A stretch of 64,000 nucleotides of DNA from Luteibacter sp. (GTDB lineage Bacteria > Pseudomonadota > Gammaproteobacteria > Xanthomonadales > Rhodanobacteraceae): contig NZ_WNDO01000030.1 of NCBI RefSeq assembly GCF_009912395.1, forward strand, positions 1 through 64,000, given 5' to 3'. The position numbers and the translations under genes are program-made. The notes beneath the pieces are model-generated. The model had not been told where the DNA came from. It made no database searches and worked only from the letters and a program-made list of their open reading frames with translations. This document shows, in pieces, positions 5,893-55,543 of the stretch. Numbering within the stretch: the stretch's first letter is position 1; each line of letters starts with the position of its first letter.

Positions 5893-5980
5893 CGGGAGGT
5901 CTCAGGAAGAGGTGGAACACCATGCTTCGCCTCCGCGACGTCCTTTGTCGGACCAAGGCGCGGTTGGATCGTACGCCTAG

Positions 5981-51502: not shown

Positions 51503-52789
51503 TCAGGCGATCGAACCCGGGCGGAATTCCAGCGACACCCGCGCCGGCCGGCCGGGCAACTGGAGTGCCGCGGCGCGTTCCGGTGCGCGGGCCAGCACGC
51601 GGCCACCGCGCAGCACCAGCAGGCGGGCCGCTCGAAGGCGAATCGCCTCGTAGGCGTCGCCGGCCTGCAACAGCACCAGATCGGCCGGATGGCCTTCCGC
51701 GATGCCATAGCCCTCCAGGCCCAGCACGCGCGCCGGATTCGCGGTGACTGCGTCGAAACACTGGGCGACACCCGCCGTGGAGGTCATCTGGGCGACGTGC
51801 AGGCCCATGTGGGCCACGTCGAGCATGTCGCCCGAGCCCATGCCGTACCACGGGTCCATCGCGCAGTCGTGGCCGAAGGCGACGTTGACCCCGGTCGCCA
51901 GCAGCTCCGGCACGCGGGTCATGCCGCGACGCTTGGGGTAGGTGTCGTGGCGACCTTGCAACGTGATGTTGATCAGCGGGTTGGCGATGGCATGCACCCC
52001 GGCCTCAGCGATCAATGGGATCAGCTTGGACACGTAGTAGTTGTCCATCGAATGCATGGACGTGAGATGCGAGCCGGTGACCCGTCCCTGCAGGCCGATG
52101 CGCTGCGTCTCTGCCGCGAGTGTCTCGATGTGGCGGGACAGCGGATCGTCGGACTCGTCGCAATGCATGTCCACGCGCAGGCCGCGTTCGGCGGCGAGTT
52201 CGCACAGCCAGCGAATCGACGCGGCTCCGTCGGCCATCGTGCGTTCGAAATGCGGGATGCCGCCGACCACGTCCACGCCCATGTCGAGCGCGCGTATGAG
52301 GTTGGCCTTCGCGCTGGGCGAGCGAAGCAGGCCATCCTGCGGGAAAGCGACCAGCTCCAAGTGCAGGTACGGCGCGACGCGGCGCTTCACTTCCAGGAGT
52401 GCCTCGACGGCGAGCAGGCGGTCGTCGCAGACATCCACATGGCTGCGGATGGCGAGCAGGCCCTGGGCCACGGCCATGTCGCAGTAGGCCATCGCACGGG
52501 CGATGAGCGCGTCGATGGTGAGCTGCGGCTTGAGTTCGCCCCACAGGACGATGCCTTCGAGCAGGGTACCCGAGGCATTCAGGCGCGGCAGGCCCAGCGA
52601 GAGCGTGGCATCCATGTGGAAGTGCGCGTCCACGAAGGGCGGACAGACCAGCCGGCCCTGCGCGTCGATCTCCTCCGCCGCGCTCGCTTCCAGTGCCGGC
52701 CGGATGGCGGCGAAGCGTCCGTCGCGGATGCCGATGTCGACATCGCGGCGACCGTCGGGCAGGGTGGCGTGGCGGATGATCAGGTCCAT
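51503..52789 (-). CDS. codA: Cytosine deaminase-type amidohydrolase
   Basis: 428 residues, same size as E. coli CodA. Metal ligands HFHMD (about residues 58-62), the HCDESDD segment (~213-219) and GHDCAMDPWYGMGSGDML (E. coli has GHDDVFDPWY) fit the CodA branch, which removes the amino group of cytosine or isoguanine. Since the branch also includes N-isopropylammelide hydrolases, the substrate is not certain. It is divergent from the radical SAM-UdgX pair, 90 bases apart; a functional link to uracil metabolism is possible but unproven. Confidence 0.82.
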   Translation of the reverse strand: MDLIIRHATLPDGRRDVDIGIRDGRFAAIRPALEASAAEEIDAQGRLVCPPFVDAHFHMDATLSLGLPRLNASGTLLEGIVLWGELKPQLTIDALIARAMAYCDMAVAQGLLAIRSHVDVCDDRLLAVEALLEVKRRVAPYLHLELVAFPQDGLLRSPSAKANLIRALDMGVDVVGGIPHFERTMADGAASIRWLCELAAERGLRVDMHCDESDDPLSRHIETLAAETQRIGLQGRVTGSHLTSMHSMDNYYVSKLIPLIAEAGVHAIANPLINITLQGRHDTYPKRRGMTRVPELLATGVNVAFGHDCAMDPWYGMGSGDMLDVAHMGLHVAQMTSTAGVAQCFDAVTANPARVLGLEGYGIAEGHPADLVLLQAGDAYEAIRLRAARLLVLRGGRVLARAPERAAALQLPGRPARVSLEFRPGSIA

Positions 52790-52879
52790 GGCGGGGCTCC
52801 GGGTAACGACCCCGGATGATAGCGGTGATAGGAACCTTCACGCCGATCGGCCTTCGGATACGGCACCATAAGCCTCCCC

Positions 52880-54094
52880 ATGGAACTCTCAGACAAGCTC
52901 GCCATCCTGGCCGACGCCGCCAAGTACGATGCCTCGTGCTCGTCCAGCGGCGGCAAGGGCCGCAACTCGCTCGGTACGGGAGGCATCGGCTCGACCGAAG
53001 GGATGGGCATCTGCCATGCGTACGCGCCGGACGGGCGTTGCATTTCGCTGCTGAAGATCCTGCTCACCAACTTCTGCGTCTACGACTGCGCGTATTGCGT
53101 GAACCGGCGCAGCAGCAACGTGCGTCGTGCCCGGTTCACGCCCGAAGAAGTGGTGGAGCTGACGCTGGAGTTCTACCGGCGCAACTACATCGAGGGGCTG
53201 TTCCTGTCCTCGGGCATCATCCGCTCGCCGGACTACACGATGAAACAGCTGGTGCGCGTGGCCCGCACGCTTCGCACCGAACACCGCTTCGGTGGCTACA
53301 TCCACCTGAAGACGATTCCCGACGCCGCGCCCGAGCTGATCGACGCCGCCGGACGCTGGGCCGATCGTCTGAGCATCAATGTGGAAATGCCCACCGAGGG
53401 CGGCCTGAAATCGCTGGCGCCGGAGAAAGACCTTCGCGATATCCGCCGCTCGATGGGTCGGTTGCGGTTGTCGATCGACGAGGCGAAGGCCGAAGCGAAG
53501 GCGCCGCGTTTCGCGCCGGCGGGCCAGAGCACGCAGATGATCGTCGGCGCGGACAGCGCCAACGACCGCGACGTGCTGGTGACCAGCAGCAACCTCTACA
53601 ACAACTACCAGCTTCGCCGCGTCTACTACTCGGCGTTCAGCCCGATTCCGGACGCGTCGAAGATCCTGCCGTTGAAGCCGCCACCGCTGGTGCGCGAGCA
53701 TCGGTTGTACCAGGCCGACTGGCTGATCCGTTTCTATGGCTTCGTTGCCGACGAGATCGCGCCGGCGGGCGACGACGGCATGTTGCCGCTCGATATCGAT
53801 CCGAAGCTGGCCTGGGCGCTGCGTCATCGCGAGCAGTTCCCCGTGGACGTCAATCGCGCCTCGCGCGACATGCTCCTGCGCGTACCGGGGCTGGGCGTGA
53901 AGACCGTGGACAAGCTGATCGCCATGCGCACGCACAAGCGCATCCGCTACGACGACCTGGTGCGCCTGCGCGTGCCGGTCAAGAAGGTCGCCCCCTTCGT
54001 GCAGACGGTGGACCATCGCCCGCGCGGTGACCACGAGAGTGTCGTCCTTCGACGCGACCTGCGCGAACCGGCCCAGCCCGACCTGTTCGGCTGA
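52880..54094 (+). CDS. Radical SAM protein linked to UdgX (TIGR03916 type)
   Basis: 404 residues. The radical SAM cluster motif is CVYDCAYC (Cys66, 70, 73), preceded by ISLLKILLTNF. A C-terminal helix-hairpin-helix (VNRASRDMLLRVPGLGVKTVDKLI, about 324-350) suggests DNA binding. The order and motifs match the family described only as 'putative DNA modification/repair radical SAM protein' linked to UDG. Its TGA overlaps the ATG of the DUF4130-UdgX gene (TGATG), so both are made together. The reaction and DNA substrate are unknown. A conserved cytoplasmic role in nucleic-acid repair is inference. Confidence 0.9.
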   Translation: MELSDKLAILADAAKYDASCSSSGGKGRNSLGTGGIGSTEGMGICHAYAPDGRCISLLKILLTNFCVYDCAYCVNRRSSNVRRARFTPEEVVELTLEFYRRNYIEGLFLSSGIIRSPDYTMKQLVRVARTLRTEHRFGGYIHLKTIPDAAPELIDAAGRWADRLSINVEMPTEGGLKSLAPEKDLRDIRRSMGRLRLSIDEAKAEAKAPRFAPAGQSTQMIVGADSANDRDVLVTSSNLYNNYQLRRVYYSAFSPIPDASKILPLKPPPLVREHRLYQADWLIRFYGFVADEIAPAGDDGMLPLDIDPKLAWALRHREQFPVDVNRASRDMLLRVPGLGVKTVDKLIAMRTHKRIRYDDLVRLRVPVKKVAPFVQTVDHRPRGDHESVVLRRDLREPAQPDLFG

Positions 54095-55500
54095 TGTACC
54101 GCGTCACCCTCGACGATCCGTCCGACCTCGATACCTGGCGGACGACCGCCCGGGCGCTGCTGCTTGCCGACGTGGATCCGCGCGACGTGGCTTGGCAGGA
54201 GGATGGTCTGTTCGGCGGTGACGTCTTGCCGCCGCCGGGCGATAAGAGGCTGGCCCCCGTGCCGCGCGCTTTCCTCGATCTCGCGGCGATCGTGCTGACC
54301 CATAGCGACGAGCAGCGCCATGCGGTGCTTTATCGGATGCTGTGGCGACTCACCCATGGCGAGAAGGGCCTGCTGGCGCTCGCCACCGACGACGATGTCG
54401 CCTGGGCGTACGCCTGTGCGAAGCAGGTCAATCGCGACGCGCACAAGATGAAGGCCTTCGTGCGCTTCCGTGAAGTGACCACCGAGGACGGCAGCGTCTA
54501 CGTGGCGTGGTTCGAACCGGCGCACGATATCGTCCGTCGCGTGGCGCCGTTCTTTGTGCGTCGCTTCACCGGCATGCGCTGGTCCCTGCTCACCCCGTCA
54601 CGCACGGCTCACTGGGACGGCACGACGCTCACCTTCGGGCCGGGCGCGCGGCGCGAGGACGCGCCATCGGACGATGCGTTGGAGGACCTGTGGCGTACCT
54701 ACTACGCCAGCATCTTCAATCCCGCCCGGCTGAAGGTCGACGCGATGCGTCGCGAGATGCCGGTGAAATACTGGAAGAACCTGCCGGAGGCGCGCCTCAT
54801 CCCCGAACTGGTGCGTGACGCGCTGCCGAGGATGCAGGCCATGGTCGAGAAGCAGGCCACGGTGCCGAGGAAGAAGATCACGCCCTTGCAGAAGGCGGCG
54901 GACGAAGCGCCTGAGGGTAGTCTCGCTGAGCTGCGACGCCAGGCGGCCGATTGCCGTGCATGCGACCTTTGGAAACCGGCGACGCAGACGGTGTTCGGCG
55001 AAGGCCCCGTCGATGCCCGCGTGGTGGTGATCGGCGAACAGCCGGGCGACCAGGAAGATCTGGCAGGAAAGCCGTTCGTTGGGCCTGCGGGCAAGCTGTT
55101 CGACCAGGCGCTGGCCGAGGTCGAGGTGCCGCGCGACAGACTCTATGTCACCAATACGGTGAAGCACTTCAAGTTCGAACCACGCGGCAAGGTCCGCCTG
55201 CACAAGCGGGCGAACGCCGAGGAACAGGCGGCATGCCGGCGCTGGCTGGCGGCGGAGATCGACCGCATTCGGCCCAAGGCGTTGGTCTGCCTCGGCGCGA
55301 TGGCCGCGCAGGCCGTGTTCGGCGCGTCGTTTCGCCTGATGGAAGAGCGCGGTCGCTGGATCGAGCTGCCCGACGGGCGCCGCGCCATGGCGACGGTGCA
55401 TCCGTCGTATTTGCTGAGGTTGCCCGATCCGGCGGAGCAGGAACGGGCTTATGCGGACTTCGTGCGGGACCTGTCCCTGATGCGGGACCTGCTCGTGTAG
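54094..55500 (+). CDS. DUF4130-UdgX fusion: uracil-DNA glycosylase-like protein
   Basis: 468 residues. The N-terminal half (about 1-275) is the DUF4130 module (VLTHSDEQRHAVLYRMLWRLTHGEKGLLALATDDD). The C-terminal half is a family-4/UdgX-type uracil-DNA glycosylase: Cys287/Cys290 and Cys381/Cys399 as probable 4Fe-4S ligands, GEQPGDQED at 314-322, the R-loop RGKVRLHK with His370, and VHPSYLLR. In M. smegmatis UdgX the equivalent His (in KRRIH) forms a covalent bond with uracil-containing DNA. Here the loop is GKVRLH. Overlaps the radical SAM gene by one base. The TAG stop belongs to a perfect REP palindrome. Confidence 0.92.
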   Translation: MYRVTLDDPSDLDTWRTTARALLLADVDPRDVAWQEDGLFGGDVLPPPGDKRLAPVPRAFLDLAAIVLTHSDEQRHAVLYRMLWRLTHGEKGLLALATDDDVAWAYACAKQVNRDAHKMKAFVRFREVTTEDGSVYVAWFEPAHDIVRRVAPFFVRRFTGMRWSLLTPSRTAHWDGTTLTFGPGARREDAPSDDALEDLWRTYYASIFNPARLKVDAMRREMPVKYWKNLPEARLIPELVRDALPRMQAMVEKQATVPRKKITPLQKAADEAPEGSLAELRRQAADCRACDLWKPATQTVFGEGPVDARVVVIGEQPGDQEDLAGKPFVGPAGKLFDQALAEVEVPRDRLYVTNTVKHFKFEPRGKVRLHKRANAEEQAACRRWLAAEIDRIRPKALVCLGAMAAQAVFGASFRLMEERGRWIELPDGRRAMATVHPSYLLRLPDPAEQERAYADFVRDLSLMRDLLV

Positions 55501-55540
55501 GAGCGCGCTTGCGCGCGATCGCGCGCAAGCGCGCTCCTAC
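55497..55540. repeat. Perfect 44-base REP palindrome (identical to 25965-26008)
   Basis: Two inverted REP arms fused around GATC with no spacer, and the same sequence, base for base, as the copy after spoT. It contains the stop codon of the UdgX fusion gene and lies 3 bases before the end of the convergent phosphofructokinase gene. Confidence 0.92.
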
Positions 55541-55543
55541 AGG

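Follow-up and report, generated by a model that had tools for sequence, protein, structure and literature searches.

A 64,000-nucleotide stretch of a Luteibacter contig (NZ_WNDO01000030.1; hereafter the window) carries a two-gene locus that is a member of a known and widespread operon, whose core is a radical S-adenosylmethionine (SAM) protein paired with a DUF4130 protein and in which UdgX, a member of the uracil-DNA glycosylase (UDG) superfamily, is a frequent, optional fused module. We read the operon as a whole as a damage-response pair of DNA-lesion enzymes, radical SAM and DUF4130, and UdgX as a uracil trap that may or may not be added, and give this reading a probability of about one half. 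The context on which it rests, namely the pairing, the gain and loss of UdgX, the LexA boxes and the nearby error-prone polymerases, is directly observed; the lesion target, the auxiliary cluster and the role of DUF4130 are putative steps. Unless stated otherwise, features lie on the + strand. The first gene (positions 52880-54094) is an open reading frame (ORF) of 404 amino acids that belongs to the TIGR03916 family and includes a helix-hairpin-helix (HhH), and the second (54094-55500) encodes a DUF4130-UdgX fusion of 468 amino acids, starting within the upstream stop codon so that the two ORFs share TGATG at 54092-54096. Both this overlap and the fusion had been described in an earlier note on this DNA and were confirmed, the fusion through clear Pfam matches to DUF4130 and UDG and through scores that pass the TIGR03915 and TIGR03914 cut-offs. 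All three NCBIfam matches, to TIGR03916 (rSAM_link_UDG), TIGR03915 (SAM_7_link_chp) and TIGR03914 (UdgX family), lie far above their cut-offs; since these names themselves hold the linkage of radical SAM, DUF4130 and UdgX, the linkage is already on record, and the note was right that the first two families are named only by it.

The cohesion of the three families was surveyed in one draw of 398 Pseudomonadota genomes (338 of them at least 90% complete) by three family searches, in which only matches above the curated cut-offs were tallied; as a result, 15 of the 99 genomes with a radical SAM match, 1 of the 88 with a DUF4130 match and 218 of the 296 with a UdgX match were dropped, family-4 UDGs being expected among the last. 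Radical SAM was found in 84 genomes, DUF4130 in 87, UdgX in 78 and all three together in 63. Among the control genomes of these searches, Caulobacter vibrioides (C. crescentus) matches all three families, and its DUF4130 match exceeds the cut-off. DUF4130 stood on the same strand in every one of the 84 genomes with radical SAM, the gap being no more than 718 bases in 82 of them and about 2.8 and 3.1 kilobases (kb) in the other two, and DUF4130 without radical SAM was seen in three genomes of the 398. The question of whether the genes usually lie far apart is thus answered in the negative (82/84 within 0.72 kb), in favour of the module; the pair is constant (84/84), and UdgX is clearly associated with it (63/84). 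In the other 21 genomes the pair has no UdgX above the cut-off, and at 20 of these loci no UDG-like ORF was detected at an expectation value (E) of 1e-5 in the 7.7-13 kb read around the pair, the exception (L133) being a divergent fusion; some of the 21 genomes (G398, G137 and G221, for example) hold sub-cut-off UDG matches elsewhere, in a search that scored at most seven candidates per genome. UdgX was found without radical SAM in 15 of its 78 genomes and without DUF4130 in 13, one of which (G110) has a DUF4130 remnant. Within the window's genus, radical SAM is absent from 4 of 23 genomes (G006, G016, G020 and G021) and DUF4130 is absent from the same four. As a separate observation, one genome with the full operon bears a second, diverged DUF4130-UdgX fusion at another locus (L142, G360:C5), where no radical SAM gene was seen in the 12 kb read.

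Named relatives were taken as the best 80 of 589 confirmed loci, a set that leans to close relatives and whose titles are all Pseudomonadota. The fusion is present in 65 of them, a separate UdgX ORF in 1 and the radical SAM-DUF4130 pair alone in 12 (including L184, whose contig ends before any UdgX would be visible), and no DUF4130 was seen in 2 (including L185, whose contig ends just past a DUF4130-like start). A quick tree was built from 105 radical SAM proteins, of which 31 come without UdgX. Explaining where UdgX is present takes 14 changes on this tree, 8 of them forced by well-supported (starred) branches, compared with an average of 27 for shuffled labels. Branch support came solely from the Shimodaira-Hasegawa-like approximate likelihood ratio test (SH-aLRT), L116 and L212 sit on long branches, and L133 and two unfused neighbours were scored as having UdgX. 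UdgX has been gained or lost repeatedly relative to the radical SAM-DUF4130 pair.

The DUF4130 domain (54121-54792) scores 211.7 bits against TIGR03915 (cut-off 112.25) and 138.6 bits against the Pfam DUF4130 model (cut-off 27). When 72 of the 75 fused sequences were compared with 33 unfused ones, the latter including L184 with its contig end and L137 without radical SAM, residues D99, H117, R124, E141, H144, R157, D194, W200, N209 and R212 were equally conserved in the two sets, and M119, R126, F140 and a few others were less conserved in the unfused set. Since the residues are largely kept with or without UdgX, the work of DUF4130 probably does not depend on UdgX, and it is unlikely that DUF4130 is dedicated to releasing a UdgX crosslink. 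The predicted structure of the domain has a mean predicted local distance difference test score (pLDDT) of 89.9. A profile search against solved structures gave no convincing relative, only a single chance-like match (E 0.16), and in a fold search the top rows belonged mostly to the RecJ/DHH superfamily; the DHH triplet is absent both from the fusion protein and from the conserved positions of DUF4130. The DUF4130 structure alignment was thinned by hand to 68 of 77 listed stretches.

The UdgX domain of the fusion (54796-55479) reaches 309.5-312 bits against TIGR03914, whose cut-off is 189.95, and the Pfam UDG match is 116.3 bits. Motif A, GEQPG (amino acids 314-318; 55033-55047), includes Q316, and a phmmer alignment to Mycobacterium smegmatis UdgX (6ail) places H370 (55201-55203) at the crosslinking H109 and R368 at R107, so that the motifs GEQPGDQED and RLHK with H370, as pointed out in the earlier note, hold; the residue number H109 is taken from the available text of PMC10359453. 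Across 75 fused homologues, in M. smegmatis numbering, His109, Arg107 and Gln53 (the equivalent of Q316) are each kept in 74 and K94 in all 75. The single fused homologue without the crosslinking His is L133, a divergent sequence that has lost the R-loop. We observe separately that this fused UDG domain (in G425) scores below the UdgX cut-off and is possibly a decaying or re-purposed UdgX. The window's R-loop, GKVRLHK, had been regarded as a departure from KRRIH, but it turns out to be ordinary: compared with GKRRIHK, K105, R107 and H109 are all kept, position 108 is Leu in 45/75 and Ile in 28/75, and position 106 is Arg in 59/75 and otherwise I, V, F, K, H or L. The idea that an unusual R-loop has functional weight was therefore rejected, the key residues being kept and variation at the others being common among the fused homologues. 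Four Cys had also been noted in the UdgX part, of which three (C287, C290 and C381) are conserved, in 70, 70 and 69 of 75 respectively, and the fourth, C399, is Cys in just 2/75. In an alignment of 84 rows, from which L133 and L145 were left out, H358 is kept in 84/84; the three conserved Cys and this residue together make a Cys3-His cluster, with H358 as the fourth ligand, likely. The window's own genome has three further UDG-superfamily matches besides the fusion, which by their motifs we take to be a Mug-like protein, Ung and a third type, and simple uracil removal is therefore probably covered elsewhere.

The radical SAM protein scores 569.3 bits against TIGR03916 (cut-off 343.5), and Pfam returns a Radical_SAM match together with a sub-threshold HhH. 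The CxxxCxxC cluster motif (C66, C70 and C73; 53075-53098) is invariant in 20/20 and 61/61 aligned sequences. The HhH (amino acids 321-353; 53840-53938) is matched by HHH_3 with an E of 2e-4, so that the earlier description of the first gene as having both features stands, with the HhH supported though below the Pfam cut-off. Three further Cys (C20, C45 and C54), in a stretch encoded at 52937-53041, are likewise invariant in 20/20 and 61/61 rows and mark a possible site for an auxiliary Fe-S cluster. By profile, no solved structure was related in sequence at E 0.01; the best single-sequence match is HydE (E 0.014), and the structural matches of the model include HydE, lipoyl synthase, biotin synthase and MqnE. 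Spore photoproduct lyase was not among the 50 structural matches listed in either of two comparisons, which excludes nothing. The radical SAM structure alignment was thinned by hand to 60 of the 80 stretches plus the window's own.

LexA boxes occur in 71 of the 80 named loci in the 250 bases that precede the start of the radical SAM gene, as the alphaproteobacterial repeat GTTC-N7-GTTC (on either strand) in 62 and as CTGT-N8-ACAG, which we take to be a second form of the LexA box, in 9; random 270-base stretches of the same loci gave a mean of 1.0 boxed loci and a maximum of 4 in 200 draws. These boxes were sought as exact patterns, with near misses seen by eye (about five in each of two sets) left uncounted; L116 and L131 have neither an exact box nor a near miss. 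Where the pair has no UdgX above the cut-off, 14 of 21 genomes likewise have an exact box. The alphaproteobacterial motif is one named in the accessible part of PMC8565304, and the same part describes a COG1573-COG4277 operon in the SOS networks of Bacteroidetes and cites work in which a UDG-based repair system is reported to be SOS-controlled in Verrucomicrobia and Alphaproteobacteria. The present LexA data support, in a wider set, this SOS link already in print. A DnaE2-type polymerase is encoded in the fetched flanks of 13 of the 80 named loci, and both of the copies scanned (2/13) are error-prone polymerases. In the part of PMC13130816 available, a gene with the name of the radical SAM family is up-regulated in Acinetobacter desiccated at 8% humidity, which is in keeping with a damage role.

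Other lineages have other elements. In the window's genus, the lexA genes are themselves preceded by a box of the TGTACAAATGTAC type. Of 23 upstream stretches, 11 contain the 14-mer TGTACAAATGTACA, and in all but one of the remaining 12 the same core or its complement can be read (stretches came from 23 of 24 loci, the exception, L288, being a second LexA). Upstream of the operon, an alignment of 19 genus loci including the window's reveals a conserved element, CTTCACGC-N17/18-GGCACCAT (52836-52869), with small deviations in some loci; it is a probable promoter or operator, and the spaced pattern has a single exact match in its own genome, at the operon. A sigma-70 scan of the element gave no match, nor did any of the four LexA forms. 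We rejected CTTCACGC/GGCACCAT as a regulon motif: with 2 mismatches it has many scattered matches in the genus (more than a reversed control, unsorted by gene), and the exact match in the own genome is the only one. In Xanthomonas, Stenotrophomonas and Pseudoxanthomonas, the palindrome GTCTCA-N5-TGAGAC lies some 39 bases ahead of the start of the radical SAM gene (L154, L175, L190 near base 5961). It is found in 3/3 named Xanthomonadaceae loci and in 2/3 other genomes of the window's order (L342 and L344, not L343), and the looser GTCTC-N5-7-GAGAC has 7 matches across the 962,042 bases that the 80 loci comprise; it is probably the operator of another regulator. With LexA boxes in most relatives and other elements in the genus and in Xanthomonadaceae, the regulator seems lineage-dependent, the operon having apparently changed it between lineages.

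In the damage-response reading that we favour, the radical SAM subunit would dock on DNA through its HhH, possibly with a second Fe-S cluster on C20/C45/C54, and generate a 5'-deoxyadenosyl radical by which a damaged base would be altered or reverted, while DUF4130 may be the partner that recognises the DNA or the lesion. Where UdgX is fused, it would excise uracil and bond to the site through H370, and this bond may mark or shield uracil sites that the same damage has produced or that error-prone synthesis has left behind. Several points weigh against this reading. The HhH scores 21.8 bits, under the Pfam cut-off of 27; the stretch with the extra Cys is modelled poorly (pLDDT <50 for residues 20-44 and 46-54); and the comparison of DUF4130 with RecJ/DHH gives low TM-scores, a middling best Z and no support from hhalign. 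None of the four LexA box forms lies within 250 bases upstream in the genus (0/19 loci), so that damage control of the operon there is unproven, and the identity of COG4277 with the TIGR03916 family is presumed. One named locus (L192) has no DUF4130-like match in the 0.7 kb left downstream. UdgX occurs in 63/84 genomes with radical SAM, compared with 15/314 without it, and this association, together with the His kept in the fusion, leaves room for a step that the pair and UdgX share.

The earlier note held that radical SAM and DUF4130 may repair, modify or release the crosslink between UdgX and DNA. The fusion and the gene overlap, the presence of UdgX in three quarters of the pair genomes (63/84) and the retention of H370 and its partner residues all speak for such a service, and the available text of PMC10359453 calls the UdgX-DNA complex irreversible and suggests RecA-dependent pathways or proteases for its resolution; the same text describes the precise physiological role of UdgX as largely unknown. 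As a general role it was not upheld, with the pair lacking UdgX above the cut-off in 21/84 genomes (20 of them with no UDG-like match in the stretch read), UdgX lacking DUF4130 above the cut-off in 13/78, the radical SAM tree requiring UdgX to change 14 times and most DUF4130 residues the same when UdgX is absent, and we consider it improbable. It is even harder to credit that radical SAM modifies DUF4130 or UdgX post-translationally, for which the constant pairing with DUF4130 and the many conserved residues of the latter could be cited, when the HhH and the LexA boxes suggest work on DNA.

Two further explanations keep the chemistry on DNA. The radical SAM protein might split a UV-induced pyrimidine photoproduct, as spore photoproduct lyase does, and the LexA boxes of relatives would fit; the structural matches listed, however, are to the four enzymes named above and others, with spore photoproduct lyase outside the 50 rows of each list, which excludes nothing, and PMC8565304, in the part available, treats SplB (COG1533) and COG4277 as separate genes, so that we regard this as unlikely. 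Alternatively, the pair could alter a normal base in the damage response, by sulfur insertion or methylation, for example, with UdgX guarding against a uracil by-product. A core resembling lipoyl synthase and biotin synthase, the three additional invariant Cys on the N-terminal side of the radical SAM motif and the NCBI name 'DNA modification/repair' agree with this proposal, but the nearby error-prone polymerases and LexA boxes favour repair or tolerance, which makes it quite unlikely. A bolder version of the damage-response reading would have a second Fe-S cluster on C20/C45/C54, as in lipoyl and biotin synthase, and a radical reaction on a base in damaged DNA, carried out with DUF4130, that is performed by no known enzyme, with the fused UdgX capping uracil sites covalently. 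We hold this to be doubtful; if true, a single damage-induced operon would combine radical chemistry on bases with a protein shield for DNA while error-prone synthesis proceeds. UdgX serves as a tool for mapping uracil, and its standing as a detachable part of the radical SAM-DUF4130 operon makes the pair, and no longer the crosslink, the place to look for a function, with the natural operons without UdgX available as controls. Few radical SAM enzymes act on DNA to our knowledge, spore photoproduct lyase being one, and the pair would join them if it acts on DNA.

Several further readings of the locus were rejected. A CodA-type cytosine deaminase (51503-52789, - strand; PRK07572 subfamily, 793 bits) is divergent and 90 bases away, as the earlier note had stated; codA-like matches occur in 19/19 genus loci, the window's included, in 0/80 named loci and in 0/21 loci without UdgX above the cut-off. 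The arrangement is thus real and restricted to the genus, and the deaminase was rejected as a functional link. A defence system was rejected as well, PADLOC models at E 0.01 giving 0 families for the radical SAM and fusion proteins. Mobile cargo was dismissed as the typical state: one locus of the operon lies on a viral contig, and 158 of 72,556 plasmid records match, 142 of these being predicted non-mobilizable. The fusion protein is matched by 56 phage records, and all 15 of those listed match its UDG part only. Separately, a perfect 23-nucleotide inverted repeat (55496-55541) at the 3' end of the fusion gene contains its stop codon TAG (55498-55500). The repeat arm occurs 19 times in the window at up to 3 mismatches, against 0.01 expected, and often in inverted pairs, so that it is probably an element of the repetitive extragenic palindromic (REP)/REPIN type.

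In the literature searched, with subscription journals mostly outside its scope, we found no publication that deals with the chemistry of radical SAM and DUF4130 as a pair; the linkage of DUF4130 appears in one figure-legend sentence in the accessible part of PMC3765255. With spore photoproduct lyase/SplB, compared through the structural match lists, the window's radical SAM protein has in common that it is proposed to act on DNA (the accessible part of PMC3765255), and it differs by the HhH and the three extra N-terminal Cys. From the fold of HydE, lipoyl synthase and biotin synthase it is set apart by the C-terminal HhH and the DUF4130 partner. The COG1573-COG4277 SOS operon, as far as the available part of PMC8565304 describes it, is alike in that a UDG and a partner gene form an operon with LexA boxes in relatives, whereas the window's genus has none of the LexA box forms tested. 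Compared with M. smegmatis UdgX, the equivalents of E52, Q53, K94, K105, R107, H109, H178 and R184, whose roles are taken from papers including the available text of PMC10359453, are kept in the window protein; R106, whose position varies, is replaced by Val, seen in 1/75 of the fused homologues, and I108 by Leu, the commonest residue there, and the window version is distinguished by its fusion to DUF4130 and its coupling to a radical SAM gene. The closest comparison is with the linked NCBIfam families TIGR03916, TIGR03915 and TIGR03914: the window locus passes all three cut-offs, shows the adjacency and fusion found in most relatives, and differs from them in nothing essential.

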